A model generated the notes under the pieces. That model was given only the letters and a program-made list of their open reading frames with translations, did no database searches and was not told the DNA's origin. The position numbers and the translations under genes are program-made. From NCBI GenBank assembly GCA_030690945.1, contig JAUYFM010000062.1, positions 1-53,969 on the forward strand: a stretch of 53,969 bases of DNA, given 5' to 3'. Origin of the DNA: Smithellaceae bacterium. Its GTDB lineage: Bacteria > Desulfobacterota > Syntrophia > Syntrophales > Smithellaceae. Below are positions 41,211-53,969 of the stretch, piece by piece; the stretch's first letter is position 1, and each line of letters opens with the position of its first letter.

Positions 41211-41251
41211 GGCAGCACTTCCTTATTGTTTGGGAAGTGCTGCCTTTTTTT
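41211..41251. terminator. Strong terminator between acyl-CoA synthetase and hcp
   Basis: Twelve-base perfect stem GGCAGCACTTCC (41211-41222) and GGAAGTGCTGCC (41233-41244), followed by seven T. It ends rightward transcription of the acyl-CoA synthetase. On the opposite strand, where hcp ends at 41250, there is no equal T run, but the hairpin may still help. Confidence 0.9.
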
Positions 41252-42893
41252 ACCCCAGAATCGTTTTCAGATCCTCATCCGGCGTGGTGATCGGTTTGAT
41301 CGCAAAGTTCTCCACCAGCACGTTTAACACGTTGGGCGTAATGAAAGCCGGCAGCGACGGACCCAGGCGGATGTCTTTGATGCCCAGGTAAAGCAGCGTC
41401 AATAAGATTGCTACCGCCTTCTGCTCATACCACGATAAGATCATGGACAGGGGCAGATCATTGACGCCGCAATTAAACGCCTTGGATAACGCTATGGCAA
41501 TCTGAATGGCCGAATACGCGTCGTTGCATTGGCCGATATCCAGCAGGCGGGGGATACCGCCGATATCGCCCAGTTCCTGGTCGAAGAAGCGGAATTTGCC
41601 GCAGGCCAACGTCAGCACGACCGTGTCTTTCGGCGCTTTTTCCACAAACTCCGTGTAGTAATTCCGGCCGGGCTTGGCGCCATCGCATCCGGCCACCAGG
41701 AAGAAGTGACGAATGGCCTTGCCTTTAACCGCTTCGATGATTTTATCGGCTACGCCCAGAACCGCATTGCGGGCAAATCCCACCATAACTGATTTGCCTT
41801 CCGTGTCCGAGGCAAACCCGGGCAGTTCGAGCGCTTTTTTGATCACCGGCTCGAAGTTGGTATCAGCGATATGAGCGACGCCCGGCCAACCCACCAGACC
41901 ACAAGTGAAAATATTTGCCGCATAAGCGTCGCGAGGCCTCTGAATGCAGTTGGTGGTCATCAGAATTGCGCCGGGGAATTCGGCAAATTCCTTGGCCTGA
42001 TTCTGCCAGGCGGTTCCATAATGACCGTAGAAGTGCGAATACTTCTTCAGTTCCGGGTAGCCATGCGCCGGAAGCATTTCGCCGTGCGTGTAGATATTAA
42101 TTCCCTTGCCTTCTGTTTGTTTCAGCAACGCGGATAAGTCCTTCAGGTCATGGCCGGAAATGAGAATAGCCTTGCCTTTTTTGGCGTAAAGCGGCACGGA
42201 TGTGGGAACGGGATGACCAAAAGCTCCGGTATTGCCTGCATCCAGCAGCTCCATGGTGCGCAGGTTAATTTCACCGCATTTTAAGACCAGACCGATCCAG
42301 CCGTTCAAATCCAGTTCTTCTCGCAGGATCGCTGCCAGCGCTTCCTGAACAAAAGCGTAAATCTTGTCGTCTTCCTGTCCCAGAATCTGCGCGTGATCCG
42401 CATAGGCGGCCACACCCTTGATGCCGAAAAGCAGGATGTGCTGAAGGGACTGAATATCGGGATTAATGGTTGTGTCCGCTTTTAGAGACGCGACTTTGGC
42501 CTGTCCAACCAGTCCGAGAACCGTTGTTTCCGCCTTGAATGTTACAGCGGCATATTTCTCATCCACGTTGGCCCCTGCTTTTTTGGCTTTGTCTTTGATT
42601 GCATCCCGCAGACTTGTGCATTGGCCGATCAGTTCCACAAAACGCGCCGCATCGAAATCCACATTGGTCAGGGTTGAAAAAAGAGCCTTAACCGTAAACA
42701 CATCAACAGCATGATCGACAATACCCGCTTTTCGGGCGTCCACCGCTGCCGCCGACAATCCTTTAAGCGCGTAAACCAGAACATCCTGAAGGGCGGCAAC
42801 TTCCGGGTCCTTGCCGCACACCCCTGACTTATTACATCCCTCACCCTTTGCTGTCTGCTCGCACTGGTAACAAAACATTGCTGAATTTTCCAT
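41250..42893 (-). CDS. hcp: Hybrid cluster protein (hydroxylamine / NO reductase)
   Basis: 547 residues. The N-terminal CYQCEQTAKGEGC followed by a Cys five residues on (GVCG) binds the [4Fe-4S] cluster with the spacing of the class found in strict anaerobes. Hybrid cluster ligands are visible as HGEMLPAHGYPEL, TTNCIQRP, VAGCDGAKPGRNYY, LACGKFRF and QCNDAYSA. Hcp reduces nitric oxide or hydroxylamine and protects from nitrosative stress. AAAGGAGATAG precedes the ATG. The promoter and operator region shared with hcpR lies upstream. Confidence 0.96.
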   Translation of the reverse strand: MENSAMFCYQCEQTAKGEGCNKSGVCGKDPEVAALQDVLVYALKGLSAAAVDARKAGIVDHAVDVFTVKALFSTLTNVDFDAARFVELIGQCTSLRDAIKDKAKKAGANVDEKYAAVTFKAETTVLGLVGQAKVASLKADTTINPDIQSLQHILLFGIKGVAAYADHAQILGQEDDKIYAFVQEALAAILREELDLNGWIGLVLKCGEINLRTMELLDAGNTGAFGHPVPTSVPLYAKKGKAILISGHDLKDLSALLKQTEGKGINIYTHGEMLPAHGYPELKKYSHFYGHYGTAWQNQAKEFAEFPGAILMTTNCIQRPRDAYAANIFTCGLVGWPGVAHIADTNFEPVIKKALELPGFASDTEGKSVMVGFARNAVLGVADKIIEAVKGKAIRHFFLVAGCDGAKPGRNYYTEFVEKAPKDTVVLTLACGKFRFFDQELGDIGGIPRLLDIGQCNDAYSAIQIAIALSKAFNCGVNDLPLSMILSWYEQKAVAILLTLLYLGIKDIRLGPSLPAFITPNVLNVLVENFAIKPITTPDEDLKTILG

Positions 42894-42942
42894 GGGCTAT
42901 CTCCTTTTTATCTTTAGTTTTTTGTAGCTTTATTTTAAAGGC

Positions 42943-42984
42943 AATATAATCGAAGATAAACAGTTGCACCTTGACTTAAGTCAA
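42943..42984 (-). promoter_or_regulatory. hcp promoter with Crp/Fnr-type (HcpR-like) operator
   Basis: The perfect palindrome TTGACTTAAGTCAA occupies 42971-42984 in the gap between hcp and its divergent regulator gene. On the minus strand a TATATT (42943-42948) would be the -10 box of hcp. Counting from it, the start of transcription falls near 42936 and the palindrome is centred at -41.5, the class II activator position of the Crp/Fnr family. The palindrome resembles the TTGAC...GTCAA sites I associate with HcpR. Confidence 0.72.
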
Positions 42985-43018
42985 ACATCAGTGATATTTT
43001 TCATTGAAAGGAAAAACT

Positions 43019-43705
43019 ATGGACATAACATCAATCATCGCCTGCATTCCTTTGTTTGAAGGCTTGTCGCCACAGCAATGCACCGCATTGGGGGCCATCG
43101 CCGTGCGGAAATACTACTCACGGGGACAAAACTTTTTTGCGGAAGGCGACGAGGGCATTGGTTTTTATGTCATTCTTTCCGGCAAAGTAAAAGTTTTCAA
43201 ACTCTCGCCTGAAGGCAAGGAACAAATTTTTCATATTCTTGAGACGCCCGAACCTTTCGCGGAAGCGGCTGTCTTTACCGGACAACATTATCCGGCCTCC
43301 GCCCAGGCGCTTGCCGAAACCATAGTACTGTTCTTCCCGAGACAGAAGTTTTTGGAACTGATCAGCCTGCAACCCTCTCTTGCGCTTTCCATGCTGGCGC
43401 TTTTGTCCCAGCGCCTGCGCAAGCTCACGATACTTGTCGAAAACCTCTCCCTTAAAGAAGTGCCGGGGAGACTGGCTGCCTATCTGCTTTATCTCTACGA
43501 ACATAACGACGATTCCGCCACCGTCAAGTTGGACATCTCCAAAAATCAAATGGCCGGCCTTCTGGGCACAATCCCTGAAACACTTTCCCGAATTTTAAAA
43601 CGCATGAATGAAGAAAAATTAATTAACGTAAGCACCCGTTCGATTTCGATTCTGGATAAAAAAGGACTGACCGATTTAGCGGAGGGCGCAAGAAAACTAG
43701 CCTGA
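43019..43705 (+). CDS. hcpR: Crp/Fnr-family regulator, HcpR-like
   Basis: 228 residues from the ATG at 43019; the earlier ATG (43004) lies in the ribosome site AAAGGA. Residues about 1-130 are the cyclic-nucleotide-binding-type sensor barrel (IGFYVILSGKVKVFKLSPEG and VFTGQHYPASAQA); the C-terminal winged helix has KNQMAGLLGTIPETLSRILKRM as recognition helix. No Fnr-type N-terminal cysteine cluster is present, so sensing would be by another cofactor (haem has been reported for HcpR relatives). Divergence from hcp and the shared palindrome indicate that it controls hcp and perhaps itself. Confidence 0.82.
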   Translation: MDITSIIACIPLFEGLSPQQCTALGAIAVRKYYSRGQNFFAEGDEGIGFYVILSGKVKVFKLSPEGKEQIFHILETPEPFAEAAVFTGQHYPASAQALAETIVLFFPRQKFLELISLQPSLALSMLALLSQRLRKLTILVENLSLKEVPGRLAAYLLYLYEHNDDSATVKLDISKNQMAGLLGTIPETLSRILKRMNEEKLINVSTRSISILDKKGLTDLAEGARKLA

Positions 43706-45630: not shown

Positions 45631-45727
45631 TAAGATCGAACTTTCGATCAGTCCGCTGGTATTTTTAACCGCTTCCGCCGAACGCATCGCCAGAGTGCAC
45701 ACGTCACTCCCCGACAAATTATGTTGA
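45620..45727 (+). CDS. Possible 35-residue small protein after the Nudix gene
   Basis: An ATG within the last codons of the Nudix gene opens a frame reading MKNNKIELSISPLVFLTASA and then ERIARVHTSLPDKLC before TGA. The sequence looks protein-like rather than random, but it is short, lacks a clear ribosome site and ends in the -35 box of the hydrogenase promoter. It might be the beginning of a gene that has lost its remainder. Confidence 0.25.
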   Translation: MKNNKIELSISPLVFLTASAERIARVHTSLPDKLC

Positions 45728-45775
45728 CATGCAGGATTGCTTTACTTATACTGATTCCCGGTACTGACGGTCAGT
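45724..45775 (+). promoter_or_regulatory. Consensus promoter and palindrome before the hydrogenase operon
   Basis: TTGACA (45724-45729), a 17-base spacer, and TATACT (45747-45752) make a near-perfect sigma-70-type promoter. Starting from it, transcription would begin near 45759 and give a leader of about 143 bases. A palindrome ACTGAC-G-GTCAGT occupies 45763-45775, right where a repressor would block the start of transcription. The remaining leader up to the ATG at 45902 is AT-rich with the ribosome site GGAAGGA. Confidence 0.68.
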
Positions 45776-45901: not shown

Positions 45902-48900
45902 ATGATCACAGTAAATATTGACGGAAAAGACTGTGTGACAGTCACCGGTTTAACGATTATCGACGCTGCCCGTTCTCACGGAATCGATATTCCCTCGCTG
46001 GGATATGACCCGCGTGTGAGTCCCCCGAGTAATTTCGAAGCCGCGTTTGTAGAGGTGACCGACGGCAGCAAGACCCGATTTGCATCCGCGACGTCCACGC
46101 CGGTTGAAGACGGCATGGTCATCCGGACCCAATCCGAAGCTCTCCACATCTATCGGAAGATTTATCTTCAGGCTCTCCTGCGCAACCATTACGGTGACTG
46201 TGTTGCGCCCTGCGTTTTACGCTGCCCGGCGCATATTGACATTCAGAAATATATTTACCATGTCGATTCCGGCAATTTTCCGGAGGCGCTCGCAGTCATC
46301 AAAGACAGCAATCCACTCCCCGCTGTCTGCGGACGCGTCTGCCCCCATCCCTGCGAAACGGATTGCCGCCGCAACGCCCTGGACGGCGCGGTCAACATCA
46401 ACGGCATCAAGCGCTTTGTCGCCGACTGGGACACCTTCCAATTGGAGCCTTATAAACCCGTGTGCCTGCCGGATACAGACCACAAGTTCGCCATCATCGG
46501 AGCGGGGCCGGCGGGGCTTTCCGCCGCCTGGTTTTTGCGCCGTCTGGGTCATGCGGTCACTATCTTTGAAATGCAGGAAGCGGCAGGCGGCATGCTGCGC
46601 TGGGGCATCCCCTACTACCGCCTGCCCGAAAAAGATCTGGATGCTGAAATTAAATCCATTCTCGATCTGGGTGTCAATATCTCTTACAATAAGAAACTGG
46701 GACGGGATTTTACGCTGGAATCGCTCAAAAGAGACGGCTTTGAAGCTATTTTTCTGGGACTGGGCGCTCAAAAAGCGACCGCCATCGGCGCAAAAGGCGA
46801 AGATACCCAAGGTGTTATGACCGGTCTCGATTTTCTCGCCAAACTCGCGCGAGGCGAAAAACCTGAGCTGGGCCATCGTGTTATTGTGATCGGCGGCGGG
46901 AACACCGCCATGGATGCTGCGCGTAGCGCCATACGACTGGGCGTCAAAGAGGTGATCGTCGCCTATCGCCGTACCCGTCAGGAAATGCCCGCCCAGGATA
47001 TCGAAATTGAAGAAGCCATTGAGGAAAGCGTCAGCATGCAGTTTCTCACTGCCCCTGTTTCCATCGCGCCAGCGGGTGAAGCTCTGCAGATGACTTGCGT
47101 GAGAATGGCTCTGGGCGAGCCGGACAAAAGCGGCAGGCGGCGTCCCGTGCCTCAGGAAGGTTCCGAATTTACACTCACCGCCTCAACAATTATCTCCGCC
47201 ATCGGCCAGGCGGTGGACGGCTTTTGTATCGGTGATAAGACCTTAATTGATAAATGGGGCAACGTGGTCGTGAACCCGCAAACCCTGCAAACAGCCCTGC
47301 CCTGGGTTTTCTCCGGCGGCGACTGCGTCACCGGCCCGGACATCGCCATTGCCGCCATCGGCTCAGGTAAGCGCGCCGCAGAAGCGATGGATGAATTTGT
47401 GCGCACAGGCGCAGTCACAACAAAGGACGATCCCTACACCTGCACCAAAGGCAAATGGAAAGATCTACCACCGGAAACATTCAGGGGGATCAAGCCGGCT
47501 GAGCGCAGGGAAGTGCCGGTTCTGGAGCCCGAAGCCCGGAAAACAAATTTCAGCGAATCATCCACAACCTGGGATCAGGAAGCCGCCATGGCGGAGGCGT
47601 CCCGCTGCCTTGCCTGTGGCTGTACGGAACGATATGACTGCGAGCTACGCAACTATGCCAGCGATTACGGCGTCGAGCACGATCAAACGCAACCGGCCAA
47701 GCCTCTACCCATTGACGAAAACCATCCCACAATTACACGGGATCCCGGCAAATGTATTTTGTGCGGCCTGTGCCTGAAAGTCTGCCGCGAAATGGAGGGT
47801 GTCTCGGCGCTGAGTTTCTACGAAACCAATGATGTTTTAACCATCGGCCCCAACGACCATCGGCCGCTGGATATGACCGTTTGCGTAGCCTGCGGCCACT
47901 GTGCCATGGTCTGCCCCACCGGAGCGCTCACGCTGAAACCCGCACTGCCCGATGTTTATCGCGCATTGAAAGATTCCCAGTTGACCGTTGTCGCTCAGAT
48001 CGCTCCTGCCGTGCGCGCCGCTTTCGGTGAACAATACGGCATCCAGGGCAGCGATGTCATGCCGGTTTTAAGCGCCTGTTTGAAGCAACTGGGGTTTAAT
48101 TTTGTGTTTGATACCTGCTGGGCGGCCGATCTGACCATTATGGAAGAAGGAACGGAATTTCTGTCGCGCCTGGCCGAAGGCGGCATTTTGCCACAAATTA
48201 CCTCCTGCTGTCCGGCCTGGGTCAATTACTGCGAAAAAATGGCGCCGGATATTTTGCCGCATCTGTCGTCCTGCAAATCGCCGCAGCAGATGTTCGGCGC
48301 GGTGATTAAACAATATTTCGCCAGAGAACTCAAGGTGCGGCCGGAGCTTTTGTACTTTGTCTCCATCATGCCCTGCAACGCCAAAAAATATGAGGCCATG
48401 CGCCCCGAATTCAAAACAGATAATCTTCCGGAGGTCGATCGCGTGCTGACCACCTGGGATGTGATGACCATGCTTGCGGAAAAAAATATCGATCCGCGCA
48501 AGGTTAAGCCGATGCCGGTGGATGCTTTCTTCGGAAAGGTGTCCGGCGCGGGGATTATTTTCGGCGCCAGCGGAGGCGTGGCCGAAGCTGCGCTCCGTCT
48601 CGCCGCGGAACGCGTCATGGGCAAACGAATGGAAAGCTTCAACTATGAAGGCGTCCGCGGACTTCAGGGCGTCAAAGAAACAAACATTGCCCTGGGCGAC
48701 TCCCAGGTAAGACTGGCCGTGGTAAGTGGTTTGCAGAATGCACAAAAACTGATCGACCGGATGAGAGCGGGTGACGCCCCGTATGACTTGATTGAAGTGA
48801 TGGCCTGTCCCGGAGGCTGCATCAACGGATCAGGCAACCCCGCGCCGCTTTTGAAGAGCGACACGGAACAGCGCCTGGAAGTCCTCTATCGCCTGGATCA

Positions 48901-49339
48901 GGAATCTTCAATCCGCACCAGTCAGGATAATCCTTCCGTTCAGGATATTTATACGAACTGGCTGGGCGAACCGGACAGCGAAACGTCGCATCATGCCCTG
49001 CATACAACCTACAAGCGCCGGTCCATGCGTCTGCAGGACATTAAGGAAGAAGAAGCACAACAAGATCTGCCCGTGGTGGATGTCGGTGTGTGTATCGGCA
49101 CCAATTGTTACATCAAGGGTTCCTGGAAACTGCTGGAAGGATTGTCCGCCGAATTAAGACGACGGGGACTGGCGGACCGGTTCCGCGTTAAGGCTCGTTT
49201 CTGTACGGGACAGTGCGAAGGCGGACCCAATGTGGCTATCGGCAATAAAATCATTTCCGTTGATCATCTGGATCAGGCAGGGGCTTTCATCGATGTCCAT
49301 CTGATGCCGCTGATCGGAGCGGAAGAAGCGGGAAAATAA
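45902..49339 (+). CDS. hydA: [FeFe]-hydrogenase fused to a GltD-like NAD(P)H oxidoreductase unit
   Basis: 1145 residues; order of domains: (1) ferredoxin-like fold, residues 1-80, whose cluster cysteines are replaced (Gly34, Phe45, Ala48, Ala63); (2) a GltD-type iron-sulfur region, about 95-185, with CVAPCVLRCPAHIDI and CGRVCPHPCETDC; (3) FAD site GAGPAGLSAA near 197 and NAD(P)H site GGGNTAMDAAR near 330; (4) an extra Cys group CLACGCTERYDC near 569; (5) two [4Fe-4S] clusters near 617 and 662 (CILCGLCLKVC, CVACGHCAMVC); (6) the H-cluster domain with all motifs, TSCCPAW near 766, MPCNAKKYE near 822, MACPGGCINGSGNP near 966; (7) small-subunit-type and thioredoxin-like [2Fe-2S] domain at the end (CIGTNC, CTGQC). 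It should couple NAD(P)H with H2 in the cytoplasm, possibly by electron bifurcation. Maturation genes hydEFG are not here. Confidence 0.93.
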   Translation: MITVNIDGKDCVTVTGLTIIDAARSHGIDIPSLGYDPRVSPPSNFEAAFVEVTDGSKTRFASATSTPVEDGMVIRTQSEALHIYRKIYLQALLRNHYGDCVAPCVLRCPAHIDIQKYIYHVDSGNFPEALAVIKDSNPLPAVCGRVCPHPCETDCRRNALDGAVNINGIKRFVADWDTFQLEPYKPVCLPDTDHKFAIIGAGPAGLSAAWFLRRLGHAVTIFEMQEAAGGMLRWGIPYYRLPEKDLDAEIKSILDLGVNISYNKKLGRDFTLESLKRDGFEAIFLGLGAQKATAIGAKGEDTQGVMTGLDFLAKLARGEKPELGHRVIVIGGGNTAMDAARSAIRLGVKEVIVAYRRTRQEMPAQDIEIEEAIEESVSMQFLTAPVSIAPAGEALQMTCVRMALGEPDKSGRRRPVPQEGSEFTLTASTIISAIGQAVDGFCIGDKTLIDKWGNVVVNPQTLQTALPWVFSGGDCVTGPDIAIAAIGSGKRAAEAMDEFVRTGAVTTKDDPYTCTKGKWKDLPPETFRGIKPAERREVPVLEPEARKTNFSESSTTWDQEAAMAEASRCLACGCTERYDCELRNYASDYGVEHDQTQPAKPLPIDENHPTITRDPGKCILCGLCLKVCREMEGVSALSFYETNDVLTIGPNDHRPLDMTVCVACGHCAMVCPTGALTLKPALPDVYRALKDSQLTVVAQIAPAVRAAFGEQYGIQGSDVMPVLSACLKQLGFNFVFDTCWAADLTIMEEGTEFLSRLAEGGILPQITSCCPAWVNYCEKMAPDILPHLSSCKSPQQMFGAVIKQYFARELKVRPELLYFVSIMPCNAKKYEAMRPEFKTDNLPEVDRVLTTWDVMTMLAEKNIDPRKVKPMPVDAFFGKVSGAGIIFGASGGVAEAALRLAAERVMGKRMESFNYEGVRGLQGVKETNIALGDSQVRLAVVSGLQNAQKLIDRMRAGDAPYDLIEVMACPGGCINGSGNPAPLLKSDTEQRLEVLYRLDQESSIRTSQDNPSVQDIYTNWLGEPDSETSHHALHTTYKRRSMRLQDIKEEEAQQDLPVVDVGVCIGTNCYIKGSWKLLEGLSAELRRRGLADRFRVKARFCTGQCEGGPNVAIGNKIISVDHLDQAGAFIDVHLMPLIGAEEAGK

Positions 49340-49340
49340 A

Positions 49341-49661
49341 ATGCTTTTAATAACGATTTGTGTCGGCAGTTCATGCAGCTTGCGAGGCTCCGATGAATTA
49401 GCCTCGGGATTATTCCGGCTGATCGAAAAGGAAAAACTCGAAGGATTGGTCGATATTGTCGGCGCTTTCTGCATGGACGCCTGCTCCAAAGGCATTTCCG
49501 TGCGCGTGGGCGATCAGGAATTCAGCGGCATCCACCCTGAACAGGCGGAAGCCTTTTTCTACAGGGAAGTTGTTCCCCGGATTAAAACCAAACTCATGCC
49601 GCGCAACAACAATGATTCCCCGGCCACTCCGATTACGGAAAGGAAAGTTCATGATGAATGA
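49341..49661 (+). CDS. Thioredoxin-like [2Fe-2S] ferredoxin (NuoE/HydC-like)
   Basis: 106 residues. CVGSSC near the N-terminus and CMDAC about 35 residues later match the CX4C ... CX3C pattern of thioredoxin-fold [2Fe-2S] proteins. The protein lacks the N-terminal helical bundle of NuoE and is thus the minimal form. It starts two bases after the hydrogenase stop and overlaps the next gene start, so it belongs to the same operon and may be an electron link between the fusion hydrogenase and the sensory protein. The C-terminal 20 residues are probably disordered. Confidence 0.85.
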   Translation: MLLITICVGSSCSLRGSDELASGLFRLIEKEKLEGLVDIVGAFCMDACSKGISVRVGDQEFSGIHPEQAEAFFYREVVPRIKTKLMPRNNNDSPATPITERKVHDE

Positions 49662-51378
49662 ACCCGTCATTATCACCAACCCGGCCCGCTGCCGCGACTG
49701 TTACCGTTGCGTGCGCCATTGCGACGTCAAAGCCATTCGCGTTCACGACGGCCAGGCCCAGGTCGTTCCCGAGTTGTGCATCGTTTGCGGGACCTGCATC
49801 CGCACCTGCCCGCAAAAAGCCAAGGACGTTCACAGTGCAACCCCGGATGTAAAACAAGCGTTAGAAGAAGGACGGAAAGTCATCGCATCGGTTGCGCCGT
49901 CCGCACCCGCCTATTTCGGCTTCCATCATTTTTCTGAAATGGAAACGGCGCTCAAGCAATTGGGCTTTTATGCGGTAGAAGAAACCGCCGCCGGAGCCGA
50001 AATTGTCGGCCTCGCTCATCGCGATTATATGGAGCAAATGCCGGATCGATGGCCTGTGATTGTATCCGCCTGCCCGGTGATCATTAATATCGTTGAGAAG
50101 TATTATCCTGATTTAATCCCTCATTTGGCGCCCATTGTCTCGCCGATGATCGCGCACGGCCGCCTGCTTGCCCAAAAATATGGGTACGGGGCTACCCCGT
50201 ATATCGTTTTCATCGGTCCCTGTATTGCCAAGAAGATGGAAATACTCGACGCGTCGGAAACAGGCGCGGTTTCGGTGGCCATTACCTTTCGCGGTCTTGC
50301 CAACTGGTTTCAGGAAGCAGGTATCGTCTTTGAAAAAGCCGCAAACAGCACAGAACCATCATCCGCGGTAGATGCACGGCTGTTTCCTGTGGAAGGAGGC
50401 CTCATCGGTACGGCAGGCTTGAGCACGGATATGCTCAACAACTCTCTGATCGTCGCCAGTGGTCTGGAAACCTGCCAGAATATTCTGAGCGATATCCGCG
50501 CCGGTCAGCTGAATGCATCGCTGGTGGAATTGATGGCATGTACCGGCGGCTGCATCAACGGTCCGGCCATGGCCGATTTGGAAGGCGGCATCTATGCGGC
50601 ACGACAGAAAATCATCGATTATCATCGTCATCGCCCCGCCTATACCGTAACACCCCGCGAAAACTGGCCGGATATCACACGCACTTATACCGATAAAAAA
50701 GAACCTATTCCTGAATTCAGCGAAGAACAAATCAGGGATGTGCTGAGACGCGTCAACAAATACACGCCGGATGACGAGCTTAACTGCGGCGCCTGTGGTT
50801 ATTCCAGCTGTCGTGAAAAAGCCATCGCCACGCTCAGAGGCATGGCGGAAGTCACCATGTGCATTCCGTATATGCGCAGCCGTTCCGAATCGCTGCGTCA
50901 AGTCGTCATGGATGTGTCTCCAAATTCCATTCTTATTGTTGATAATCACCTGAGCATTCAGGACCTGTCTCCCTCGGCCGAACACCTCTTTGGCTGTCTG
51001 CTTGCGGACGTCAAGGGCAAACACCTCTCCCGGCTGATTCCGGTCTATGACGACTTCATCGCCGTACGGGACACGAGACAGCCCCTCATCGGAAAAATCA
51101 GACGTCTCAGCGATCATCTTGTCGTAGAGCAAAACATTGTCCGTGTAGAAGGGCAATCGCTCCTGATCGCCATTATGCGCGACATTACCGAGCATGAAAC
51201 GGAAAAAAAGAAATTCCATCAACTGCGGGCGCAAACACTCGAACAAACACGGGAAGTGGTGCGAAAACAAATGCGGGTGGCCCATGAGATCGCCCATCTT
51301 TTGGGCGAAACCACAGCGGAAAGTAAAATGATTGTCACGCATCTGGCAAAGATTCTGGAAGAGGAAGAATCAAAGTGA
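49651..51378 (+). CDS. hydS: Sensory-type [FeFe]-hydrogenase homologue with PAS domain
   Basis: 575 residues from the ATG at 49651 (GGAAAGG precedes it; a longer frame from 49456 is not supported). Two [4Fe-4S] clusters lie at residues 13-24 and 43-54 (CRDCYRCVRHC, CIVCGTCIRTC). The H-cluster domain keeps its ligand cysteines (SACPVI near 140, GPCIAKK near 190, MACTGGC near 297), but the proton-transfer cysteine of TSCCP is Ala. A further cluster motif (CGACGYSSC near 380, plus a Cys in VTMCIP) is followed by a PAS domain (about 417-517) and a terminal coiled coil. There is no kinase domain. This matches group C sensory hydrogenases such as HydS. It should bind H2 and change conformation rather than turn it over. 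Confidence 0.88.
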   Translation: MMNEPVIITNPARCRDCYRCVRHCDVKAIRVHDGQAQVVPELCIVCGTCIRTCPQKAKDVHSATPDVKQALEEGRKVIASVAPSAPAYFGFHHFSEMETALKQLGFYAVEETAAGAEIVGLAHRDYMEQMPDRWPVIVSACPVIINIVEKYYPDLIPHLAPIVSPMIAHGRLLAQKYGYGATPYIVFIGPCIAKKMEILDASETGAVSVAITFRGLANWFQEAGIVFEKAANSTEPSSAVDARLFPVEGGLIGTAGLSTDMLNNSLIVASGLETCQNILSDIRAGQLNASLVELMACTGGCINGPAMADLEGGIYAARQKIIDYHRHRPAYTVTPRENWPDITRTYTDKKEPIPEFSEEQIRDVLRRVNKYTPDDELNCGACGYSSCREKAIATLRGMAEVTMCIPYMRSRSESLRQVVMDVSPNSILIVDNHLSIQDLSPSAEHLFGCLLADVKGKHLSRLIPVYDDFIAVRDTRQPLIGKIRRLSDHLVVEQNIVRVEGQSLLIAIMRDITEHETEKKKFHQLRAQTLEQTREVVRKQMRVAHEIAHLLGETTAESKMIVTHLAKILEEEESK

Positions 51379-52550
51379 GACAGCTTGTAGAGTCTAACTG
51401 GACCAGTCTGAATAAAGCCGGTGAGGAACTCTGCGGCGACTCAGTCATGATCCGCACGAAACCGGATTCGTTTGTGGCGGTCTTATCCGACGGTCTGGGC
51501 AGCGGCGTTAAAGCCAGCATTCTATCGTCACTCACCGCTGAAATCGCCGCGCGGATGTTTGAAGCGGATGGAACGGTGGAAGACGTCATGCAGACGCTGG
51601 TCGAGACCCTTCCGGAATGCTCTGTCCGCAAGCTGGCCTATGCCACTTTTGCCGTTTTAATTGTTTATCATGGACGCGACGCTCATCTCGTCCTCTTTGA
51701 TTCCCCGCCTTTGATTCTCATTCGCGACAACGCAATCTTCACTCTGCCGCTCGAAGAACGTCAGGTTAAAGACAGAATCATCATGGAAGCGCATTTCGAA
51801 TTGATGGAAAACGATTACATGGTTTTAATCAGCGACGGCTATACGCATGCTGGACTGGGCGGCATCTACCGCATGGGCTGGGGATGGAAAAATGTGGCCA
51901 CCGCCGTGCAACGTTTCGTGCAAACCGGCGTGGATACCGTGAAACTGACCGAAGCGCTGTCTAAAACCTGCATGAAGCTTTACAGTGACAAACCGGGGGA
52001 TGATTCCACCGTCATCTGCATGAAAGTGCGTCCCGCGATTTCCGTTTGCGTGCTGACCGGGCCGCCCACCAACAAGGACATGGACGAATTTGCGGTTTCC
52101 CGCCTGATGGCCGCCGAAGGGGATAAAATTATCTGCGGCGGCAGCACGGCTCAGATGGCGGCCCGCGTCCTTAACGAGAAACTGGATGTGGAATGGGTTC
52201 CCCCTTGGAAGCGCACCAGTGAAGAGCCCAAGAAAAAAGGTTCTCCACCTACGGCCTCCTTAAAAGGCATTAACCTGGTGACGGAAGGCATATTAACCAT
52301 TGGCCAGGCCCTCGAGATTATGCGCGGCGCCAAGACCATTCATGATCTGCCCAAAGACAACGACGCCGCAACAAGACTGGCCCGCTACTTTATGGCGGCG
52401 GATGATATTCACCTGATTGTAGGAACGGCCATTAACCCTAATCAGGTTGCCGATCTCATCCGGGGCGAACCGATGAGAATGGTTTATATCCGGGAACTGG
52501 TATCCGACCTCAACGCCAGAAACAAGATTGTGACGGTGGAGAGGGTTTGA
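51375..52550 (+). CDS. SpoIIE/PP2C-type phosphatase with unassigned C-terminal domain
   Basis: 391 residues, GTG start overlapping the sensory hydrogenase stop (GTGA). The PP2C-like SpoIIE domain covers residues about 1-215: LSDGLGSGVKASIL, VLISDGYTHAGL and KPGDDSTVICM hold the metal-binding aspartates. Residues about 216-391 are a separate domain (ICGGSTAQMAARVLNEKLDV, LVTEGILTIGQALEIM, IHLIVGTAINPNQVADLIRG) that I cannot name. Phosphatases of this kind are reported next to group C3 sensory hydrogenases and are taken to be their output. Its substrate phosphoprotein is not seen in the window. Confidence 0.85.
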   Translation: MRQLVESNWTSLNKAGEELCGDSVMIRTKPDSFVAVLSDGLGSGVKASILSSLTAEIAARMFEADGTVEDVMQTLVETLPECSVRKLAYATFAVLIVYHGRDAHLVLFDSPPLILIRDNAIFTLPLEERQVKDRIIMEAHFELMENDYMVLISDGYTHAGLGGIYRMGWGWKNVATAVQRFVQTGVDTVKLTEALSKTCMKLYSDKPGDDSTVICMKVRPAISVCVLTGPPTNKDMDEFAVSRLMAAEGDKIICGGSTAQMAARVLNEKLDVEWVPPWKRTSEEPKKKGSPPTASLKGINLVTEGILTIGQALEIMRGAKTIHDLPKDNDAATRLARYFMAADDIHLIVGTAINPNQVADLIRGEPMRMVYIRELVSDLNARNKIVTVERV

Positions 52551-52877: not shown

Positions 52878-53969
52878 ATGAAAATCAGAAGGCGGCTGGG
52901 AGTAAATATATGGATCTCGGTGGTTGCGATTGTGCTCATGATAGTCACCCTGGCCTGGACATTCCGGGAGGGCTACCGGGCAGATCAGAATTTGCGTCTC
53001 ACTGATGAAATACGGAAAGTTGTCTCTGAGAGGGTCTTAGTTAGGGACGAGTATCTCCTGAATCCAAGCGAACAGGCGAAAAACAAGTGGTATGAATGAT
53101 CTGAAACCCTCCTCGCATTACTGGAATCAGCCTCTGAAAGGTTTACGGGCACAGAGGACAGAGCACTCCTGCAAGAAGCCCGCAAGAGCCTTGATTTAGG
53201 GGTCTCTTCATTCTCAGTATTGGAGAAAGATCAGCAAAAGGAGTATGTTGATAGAAAGAAATTTGCTTTTAGTGACGCAGAGTCGAAGCTGATCAGTCAG
53301 GTATTTCTGAACGCCAAGAACTTGAACAACAACATCGTCAGACTGCACGAATTAACGACCAGGGCAGCGACAACCACGAGGAACAGAGGTATTATTTTAA
53401 TTATCCTCTTCATTGTGGGCAGTACCATTGCGATAGCCACCAATTCAATCATCATCAGTAGAATCGTTGAGAGGCGATTAACAGCGCTTTATAAAGGGCT
53501 CAAGATCATTGGGGGCGGCAATCTGGATTATCACATCGACGCAGGGGGCGATGATGAACTTTCGGACCTGGCCCATGCAAGCAACGAAATGGTTATGAAA
53601 CTGAAGGAATCCCAGGAATTCGCTGAGAGCGTCATCAACACGGTGCGTGAACCTTTAATTTCTTTGAACCAGGATTTAAGAGTAGTCTCCGTCAGCCGCT
53701 CCTTCTGTGAATTCTTCAAGGTAAAACCTGAAGACACCGTGGGGCAGCTTATCTATGACCTGGGCAATAAACAATGGGATATCCCCAAGCTGCGGGAACT
53801 GCTGGAAAACATCCTGCCCAAAAAAGTAACCTTTGACAACTACGAGGTTGAACACGACTTTACCGGCGTTGGCAGGCGCATCATGCTTTTGAATGCCCGG
53901 CAGATTGAACGAGCGTCGGGAAAAGAACGGATCATCCTGCTGGCTATCGAGGACATCACCGAACGTAAG
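52878..53969 (+). pseudogene. Membrane sensor protein (HAMP-PAS), interrupted by one in-frame TGA; runs off the window
   Basis: From ATG at 52878 (AGGAGAG upstream) the frame gives a membrane helix (VNIWISVVAIVLMIVTLAW), 50 residues of periplasmic sequence, then TGA at codon 74 (53097-53099). The same frame continues without another stop to the window end: the rest of a helical periplasmic domain, a second helix (GIILIILFIVGSTIAIA) near codon 175, a HAMP domain (ERRLTALYKGLKIIGGGNLD and DELSDLAHASNEMV) and a PAS domain that ends ILLAIEDITERK, the usual link to a histidine kinase or a further PAS module. A single C-to-T change of an Arg codon (CGA to TGA) would account for the stop; sequencing error is also possible. 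Confidence 0.75.

Follow-up and report, generated by a model that had tools for sequence, protein, structure and literature searches.

Why should one operon encode two [FeFe]-hydrogenases, the second of which adjoins a protein phosphatase? This question is raised by contig JAUYFM010000062.1 of a Smithellaceae bacterium (assembly GCA_030690945.1), the whole of which, 53,969 nucleotides, is called here the window (contig C19 of a 3.15-Mb genome). The original prediction, made from the sequence alone, was that a bifunctional hydrogenase, a thioredoxin (Trx)-like ferredoxin, a second H-cluster protein with a PAS domain and a SpoIIE-type phosphatase are encoded in one operon and constitute an H2- or redox-dependent switch. 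We found the four open reading frames (ORFs) at 45902-52550 of the forward strand, none with an internal stop and, as predicted, tightly spaced. Our analysis supports placing the second hydrogenase, HydS, in group C3 of HydDB. It also identifies HydS and the phosphatase, often with the Trx-like protein, as a conserved core whose hydrogenase partner is exchanged. The components are as follows.

45902..49339, forward: gene 1 (1145 aa), catalytic-type group A [FeFe]-hydrogenase with a fused N-terminal NfnA/GltD-like FAD-NAD(P) module, from Pfam, NCBIfam and PDB matches and the tree
49341..49661, forward: gene 2 (106 aa), thioredoxin-like [2Fe-2S] protein, 1 base after gene 1; conserved Cys, weak NCBIfam nuoE_fam match, homologous to the hfsA-position gene of Thermoanaerobacterium
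49651..51378, forward: gene 3 (575 aa), HydS, overlapping gene 2 by 11 bases (8 if it starts at the second ATG); two [4Fe-4S] clusters, H-cluster domain, Cx2Cx4Cx16C FeS domain, PAS (about 426-511) and C-terminal helices (513-551 and 556-573)
51184..51375, forward: C-terminal helices of HydS with QMRVAHEIAHLLGETTAESK; phosphatase-type HydS proteins retain this motif or a variant of it
51375..52550, forward: gene 4 (391 aa), SpoIIE/PPM-type serine/threonine phosphatase, GTG start, 4-base overlap with HydS, beginning directly at the PPM fold; from the SpoIIE match, residues and model
52035..52550, forward: alpha/beta C-terminal domain of the phosphatase (from about residue 221), with conserved residues and without a named family

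HydS, its phosphatase and their genetic linkage

Pfam recognises Fer4, Fe_hyd_lg_C (180 bits) and FeS (PF04060) domains in HydS. The PAS domain scores 20.5 bits in Pfam, under the cut-off of 22.6, and 26.8 bits as NCBIfam sensory_box, over the cut-off of 22.9; the predicted model has strands and helices at 426-511. No kinase family was matched in the Pfam and NCBIfam scans, in agreement with the proposed architecture. The H-cluster cysteines C141, C191, C297 and C301 are all kept, as are those of the accessory clusters, and Ala140 replaces Cys at the proton-relay position, as had been noticed. Ala at this position is common among sensory enzymes (about 43%; PMC10055695). With reference to CpI, whose residue roles we took from PMC8163306, Gly189 occupies the Met353 position and Met295 that of Met497. 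TmHydS and TamHydS have likewise lost the relay Cys and share the C-terminal Cx2Cx4Cx16C motif, formed in the window's HydS by C379, C382, C387 and C404 ahead of the PAS domain. TmHydS also has Gly at the Met353 position. Unlike the window's HydS, TmHydS has Ser at the Met497 position, and TamHydS, a group D enzyme, is devoid of a PAS domain.

In a tree of 81 H domains, two from the window and 79 hand-chosen from the 210 found, HydS groups with phosphatase-linked relatives. It stands apart from groups A and B, from the histidine-kinase-fused C1 and the methyl-accepting chemotaxis protein-fused C2 enzymes and from group D. The tree was built with a quick method and supported by the Shimodaira-Hasegawa-like approximate likelihood ratio test (SH-aLRT) only, with a value of 88, not starred, for the C3 side. 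Labels B, C1, C2 and D came from NCBIfam, Pfam and domain make-up, and A rows were assigned by their score to gene 1. Together with the gene neighbourhood, this tree, rather than the HydDB classifier or reference set, supports membership of group C3, as originally predicted. Group D was considered and rejected, given the PAS domain and the position of two Thermoanaerobacterium group D rows elsewhere in the tree. The closest named relatives of the window's HydS come from uncultured Deltaproteobacteria, Syntrophaceae and Smithella. A metagenome-assembled genome (MAG) labelled Spirochaetes (L040) harbours all four genes of the operon and falls among the Syntrophaceae-type rows, which reflects either a transfer or a binning error.

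The identification of gene 4 as a SpoIIE-type phosphatase also held, with a SpoIIE match of 50.6 bits and the PPM residues G21, D22, D39, G40, D154, G155, D209 and D210 intact in 65/65 aligned rows. In its model (predicted local distance difference test, pLDDT, 88.4), the PPM fold opens with a strand at residue 3, and no N-terminal sensor or linker precedes it. The model superposes on 3pu9 (VIA Z 23.6, root-mean-square deviation 3.1, 218 residues aligned) and on SpoIIE 5ucg (VIA Z 23.4, deviation 2.8, 214 aligned). Beyond this fold lies a conserved domain with the invariant residues G229, D237, G255, G256, P291, P292, E304, G305, T308, G350, N354 and K384. We found no credible Pfam family for it in 65 members; the best E value beyond SpoIIE and PP2C_2 among the best 25 of 36 families was 0.02. 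No NCBIfam match was better than E 0.0074 (in 2/38 members), and no PDB sequence matched at E 10. Among 119 related genomes, the domain is confined to phosphatases adjacent to HydS, bar a short fragment in one genome (G004).

How general the association is was assessed at the named loci of the best 80 of 123 HydS relatives, 7 of them kinase-fused and 73 of the phosphatase type. The scan patterns cover FeS and H-cluster regions of HydS and thus do not select for a phosphatase. A phosphatase homologue adjoins hydS in 66 of the 73 phosphatase-type loci, 65 found by script and one (L054), whose ORF is merely extended upstream, counted by hand; the conservation of this neighbourhood had been proposed as a check of the original prediction. 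In three others (L068, L072 and L077) the phosphatase gene lies 3.2-3.3 kb away, and two loci (L064 and L105) are cut by a contig end. None of the seven kinase-fused loci has a phosphatase beside HydS. The counts are not independent, as 15 loci come from close Mogibacterium-type relatives. The script-found loci are distributed over Bacillota (37), Chloroflexota (7), Myxococcota (6, 'Deltaproteobacteria' MAGs), Thermodesulfobacteriota (5), Spirochaetota (2) and one each of Planctomycetota, Cloacimonadota and Fibrobacterota, with five unlabelled.

Presence and absence follow the same pattern. HydS is matched at E 1e-40 in 20 of the 119 related genomes. Four of these (G035, G042, G104 and G114) have distant matches only, ending before the PAS domain, and the other 16 are exactly the genomes with the phosphatase and its C-terminal domain. 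In the window's genus, 8/20 genomes have both genes and 12/20 neither. HydS and phosphatase distances correlate over 54 loci (r = 0.97, against at best 0.25 in 2000 permutations; 0.73 for distant pairs), which is also expected from shared descent alone.

Gene 2 is matched by no Pfam family and shows weak likeness to NuoE in NCBIfam (19.8 bits against a cut-off of 142). Its cysteines C7, C12, C44 and C48 are conserved in 51/51 aligned rows, in line with the thioredoxin-like ferredoxin that had been predicted. In 45 of the 73 phosphatase-type loci such a gene precedes HydS by at most 500 bases, a count that used ORFs of at least 60 aa and may miss some. With the same ORF limit, the 15 Mogibacterium-type loci, where HydS and the phosphatase are both retained, yielded no such gene. 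As for the hydrogenase partner, within about 7 kb we found an NfnA-fused group A enzyme at 17 of the 73 loci, a plain group A enzyme at 8, a group B-like one at 10 and an ambiguous one at 2. Three of the 17 NfnA-fused loci have a further match to gene 1, that of L041 without an H-domain score. None was found within that distance in 36/73 loci, some of them on short contigs. Because adjacency of the phosphatase is kept while the type of nearby hydrogenase varies, HydS and the phosphatase, often accompanied by the Trx protein, form the conserved core. A general pairing with the NfnA-fused hydrogenase was rejected; such an enzyme is encoded elsewhere in the genome for 2/10 triad loci checked (mostly Chloroflexi).

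Related modules in other bacteria

A module of this kind is already known. HydDB (2016) named group C3 as putative sensory [FeFe]-hydrogenases with an associated Ser/Thr phosphatase, their role being given as undetermined (PMC5037454). The window's HydS resembles them in its cluster ligands, loss of the relay Cys, PAS domain without a kinase, position in the tree and adjacent phosphatase. In contrast, the Trx gene and the C-terminal domain of the phosphatase do not figure in the C3 description as given in PMC5037454. In Hydrogenedentota, C3 genes were reported to adjoin A3 genes (PMC11406978).

The sensor part of the hfsABCD operon of Thermoanaerobacterium is the second precedent, with homologues of the Trx protein, HydS and the phosphatase (PMC5707799, PMC11837493, PMC12288451). 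In T. saccharolyticum NTOU1 (L058) and T. butyriciformans (L059), the order is Trx, HydS, phosphatase and hydrogenase, with the Trx homologue directly upstream of hydS, so that the gene in the hfsA position codes for a Trx-like [2Fe-2S] protein. The hydrogenases differ: that of hfs belongs to group B (TIGR04105, 625 bits, L145) and is located downstream, whereas that of the window is an NfnA-fused group A enzyme located upstream. In the T. saccharolyticum NTOU1 record, the hfsD-position hydrogenase is split over two frames (L058:3546 onwards). Deletion of hfsA or hfsB raises the adhE transcript and ethanol production, and deletion of hfsC or hfsD does not (PMC5707799). The effects described there concern the adhE transcript and the activities of hydrogenase and alcohol dehydrogenase, rather than direct phospho-control of a hydrogenase. 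The hfsA deletion also lowered expression of hfsB-D, and that of hfsC slightly lowered hfsD (PMC5707799).

A third cluster, in Ruminococcus albus, places a PAS-bearing sensory group C hydrogenase and a putative phosphatase next to a ferredoxin hydrogenase, and its expression falls 111-fold in co-culture (PMC6776011). As described, it includes a bifunctional alcohol/aldehyde dehydrogenase, unlike the operon of the window.

New here are the core unit with its exchanged hydrogenase partner, the linker-like helix of HydS and the conserved, unnamed C-terminal domain of the phosphatase, present in relatives only beside HydS. We found no account of this domain or of the HydS linker in the open-licence literature, in searches that could not target the domain by name. 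These are concrete parts with which signalling by sensory [FeFe]-hydrogenases can be studied. They are relevant to syntrophs, whose metabolism depends on the H2 level, and to ethanol-producing thermophiles, in which hfs genes have already been engineered.

Proposed signalling from HydS to the phosphatase

The anatomy, phylogeny, gene linkage and catalytic residues described above are direct observations. With some confidence, we favour the view that the Trx-like ferredoxin, HydS and the PPM phosphatase form a group C3 H2-sensing module, operonic here with an NfnA-fused group A hydrogenase, in which HydS signals to the phosphatase. H2 would reduce the slow H-cluster of HydS, and the redox change would run via the C-terminal FeS domain and the PAS domain to the C-terminal helices. 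These would control the phosphatase in trans, probably serving as an RsbU/RsbP-type linker detached from it. The phosphatase would then dephosphorylate a Ser/Thr phosphoprotein and thereby set the expression of hydrogenase and fermentation genes. H2 sensing, the coupling of the helices to the phosphatase, its substrate and output and any effect on the neighbouring hydrogenase are what we infer. HydS and the Trx protein might restrain the phosphatase until H2 lifts this brake, a sign that the single-gene hfs deletions would fit. This sign is tentative, because the hfsA and hfsC deletions alter the expression of neighbouring genes and an hfsABCD deletion strain given hfsD alone gave high ethanol.

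The candidate linker stems from the end of HydS. Phosphatase-type HydS proteins end in a conserved pair of helices, with a variant motif in the Mogibacterium type, and the kinase-fused type has HisKA and HATPase domains instead. A gap-free alignment of 27 columns links the first helix of the HydS pair with the linker that immediately precedes the PPM domain in RsbU-like phosphatases; the linkers were chosen by motif (21/28 proteins, from 30 loci). The alignment score was reached by 0/300 column shuffles and by 1/300 shuffles that keep the heptads. In hhalign, the P value of the HydS helix was 0.0047 against the linkers and 0.13 and 0.61 against kinase helices, the latter value coming from a set of two at most. 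Likeness to kinase DHp helices is not significant, and a kinase-derived origin of the tail was rejected.

RsbU, and by prediction RsbP as well, acts via a coiled-coil linker (PMC12143880). The window's proteins have the same working parts, a sensor, a helical stretch and a PPM phosphatase with intact residues and fold. They differ in that the sensor and helix are on a separate chain from the phosphatase, which has the extra C-terminal domain. The resemblance of the HydS helix to RsbU linkers and the linker-less phosphatase suggest, at the level of sequence, a split RsbP-like switch; we regard the likeness itself as a lead. It is tempting to speculate further that the H2-sensing H-cluster replaces the stress sensor of an RsbP-type switch, and that the unnamed domain is a new one for ligand binding or docking, specific to this system, by which a second signal or the substrate is read. 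This combined proposal is possible but doubtful.

Several observations weigh against HydS-to-phosphatase signalling of this kind. The linker likeness is weak, was tested after being noticed and concerns linkers picked by motif. In a search with a hidden Markov model (HMM), the two best non-HydS proteins were linker phosphatases, at E values of only 3.5 and 3.8, and the best HydS in the reverse search (E 5.3) came behind three unrelated proteins. The hinge of the HydS model has a pLDDT below 50. No ORF in the surveyed loci, to which the search was confined, joins HydS and the phosphatase, and a fusion was rejected on these grounds. The C-terminal cluster of TamHydS, a group D sensor, was reported not to be reduced by H2 (PMC13104023). 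In T. thermosaccharolyticum deleted for hfsABCD and given hfsD, much ethanol was made (PMC11837493), which counts against a required phosphatase because hfsC was absent. No substrate was found either. A dedicated RsbV/RsbW target was rejected, as the RsbV encoded on contig C15 follows the module only loosely (present at E 1e-20 in 10/16 genomes with the module and 22/103 without). Contig C15 has no SpoIIE match, and in G006, G022 and G034 the RsbV gene is close to a different SpoIIE gene. This poor co-occurrence and the nearness to other SpoIIE genes make it unlike a specific partner. Lastly, 2/73 HydS copies (L049 and L051) have no phosphatase alongside. They are second copies, because the record names place them in the MAGs of the complete operons L034 and L037, respectively, and in these genomes two HydS sensors may serve one phosphatase.

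The second copies at L049, L051 and L025 are about 60% identical to the window's HydS. At L049 and L051 no Trx gene adjoins either and the C-terminal motif is retained, and the sole phosphatase of the L025 genome (G007) adjoins its other HydS copy. In Clostridium aestuarii (L067:9869-14904), two HydS genes flank one Trx gene and are followed by one phosphatase gene. The HydS copy of genome G068 (L016) has an in-frame TAG, and the phosphatase match of that genome is stop-free.

Might the module respond to something other than H2? It could sense intracellular redox, namely ferredoxin or NAD(P)H via the Trx ferredoxin, with the H-cluster as a redox buffer. The frequent presence and invariant cysteines of the Trx protein would agree with this, as would the putative NAD(P)-linked nature of gene 1, deduced by homology. 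So would the like phenotypes of the hfsA and hfsB deletions, though the former also lowered hfsB-D expression (PMC5707799). Nevertheless, the Mogibacterium-type loci keep HydS and the phosphatase with no Trx gene found, and H-cluster ligands, which a pure redox switch does not need, are conserved. We consider redox sensing of this type unlikely.

Trx-like [2Fe-2S] domains are electron-transfer parts, and HydS could accordingly serve, together with the Trx ferredoxin, chiefly as a slow catalytic or electron-transfer subunit, the phosphatase being co-transcribed but independent. HydS does keep its cluster ligands, and those sensory-type enzymes that have been characterised retain H2 turnover (PMC8163306, PMC10055695). 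This explanation appears improbable in view of the phosphatase linkage over several phyla, the joint presence or absence of both genes within the genus, the PAS domain and conserved C-terminal helix, and the regulatory phenotypes of hfsB mutants (PMC5707799).

That the phosphatase acts directly on the operon hydrogenase or on HydABC subunits, not on a regulator, is very unlikely: the shared operon and an RsbW-type (HATPase_c_2) ATPase, a potential opposing kinase, in the HydABC regions of this genome and of Thermoanaerobacterium speak for it, and the published hfs effects, which include transcript changes (PMC5707799), speak against it. The neighbouring hydrogenase is in any case an unlikely general target, because none was found within about 7 kb in 36/73 loci, some contig-cut. 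Neither outcome named beforehand as contradicting the original prediction, a place of HydS among catalytic group A enzymes or a phosphatase gene not conserved next to hydS, was observed. Of the overall reading first proposed, the sensor-type HydS, the genetically tied phosphatase and group C3 stand, an H2-dependent phosphatase activity is still putative, and the adjustment of the adjacent hydrogenase is unlikely as a general rule.

The partner hydrogenase and its surroundings

Gene 1 comprises Fer2, Fer4_20, Pyr_redox_2, Fer4, Fe_hyd_lg_C (301 bits) and Fe_hyd_SSU domains according to Pfam, and a weaker C-terminal thioredoxin-like [2Fe-2S] domain (23.2 bits, cut-off 24.8). NCBIfam assigns it to group A (TIGR02512, 461 bits, above the cut-off of 406); the A6 model scores 615 bits, below its cut-off of 765. 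In the tree it belongs to a group A clade of NfnA-fused enzymes (99*). Its first 600 residues match 9bov_A (555 bits), 8oh5_C (499 bits) and NfnA 9n5u_A (474 bits) in the PDB, and its H domain matches the bifurcating HydA1 8a6t_A (389 bits). The original description as a complete bifunctional hydrogenase needs a qualification for the N-terminal Fer2 domain (45902-46130), in which the cluster-position cysteines, present in 9bov_A, are missing in all 20 rows of NfnA-fused hydrogenases (the window, 17 loci and two Chloroflexi). HydDB group A2 (glutamate-synthase-linked) was rejected, as its rule calls for a GltD-type domain in the downstream protein. Here the GltD-like module is in gene 1's own chain, and the downstream gene codes for the Trx protein.

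The host genome has three Fe_hyd_lg_C genes: genes 1 and 3 of the operon and one on contig C16 that belongs to a HydABC set, with HydF close by. This region (L127, G000:C16:3000-20000) has an NfnA-fused HydB and also encodes an RsbW-like ATPase (907-1410), a second HATPase and a protein with weak likeness to DRTGG. The hyd region of Thermoanaerobacterium (L158) has a similar set.

Upstream of the operon, 271 bases separate gene 1 from the preceding gene. A promoter-like site lies there.

45724..45752, forward: TTGACA-17-TATACT, 11/12 matches, upstream of gene 1

It is a lead only, because such sites are no commoner in the region than by chance (5 observed, 5.9 expected). Downstream of the operon, a sensor-type gene (HAMP, PAS; 52878-53969) has an in-frame TGA at 53097 and may be a broken gene or contain a sequence error. 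Finally, at 41250-43705, a hydroxylamine reductase (hybrid-cluster protein) gene lies opposite a Crp/Fnr-type regulator gene, an arrangement like that of HcpR and hcp.

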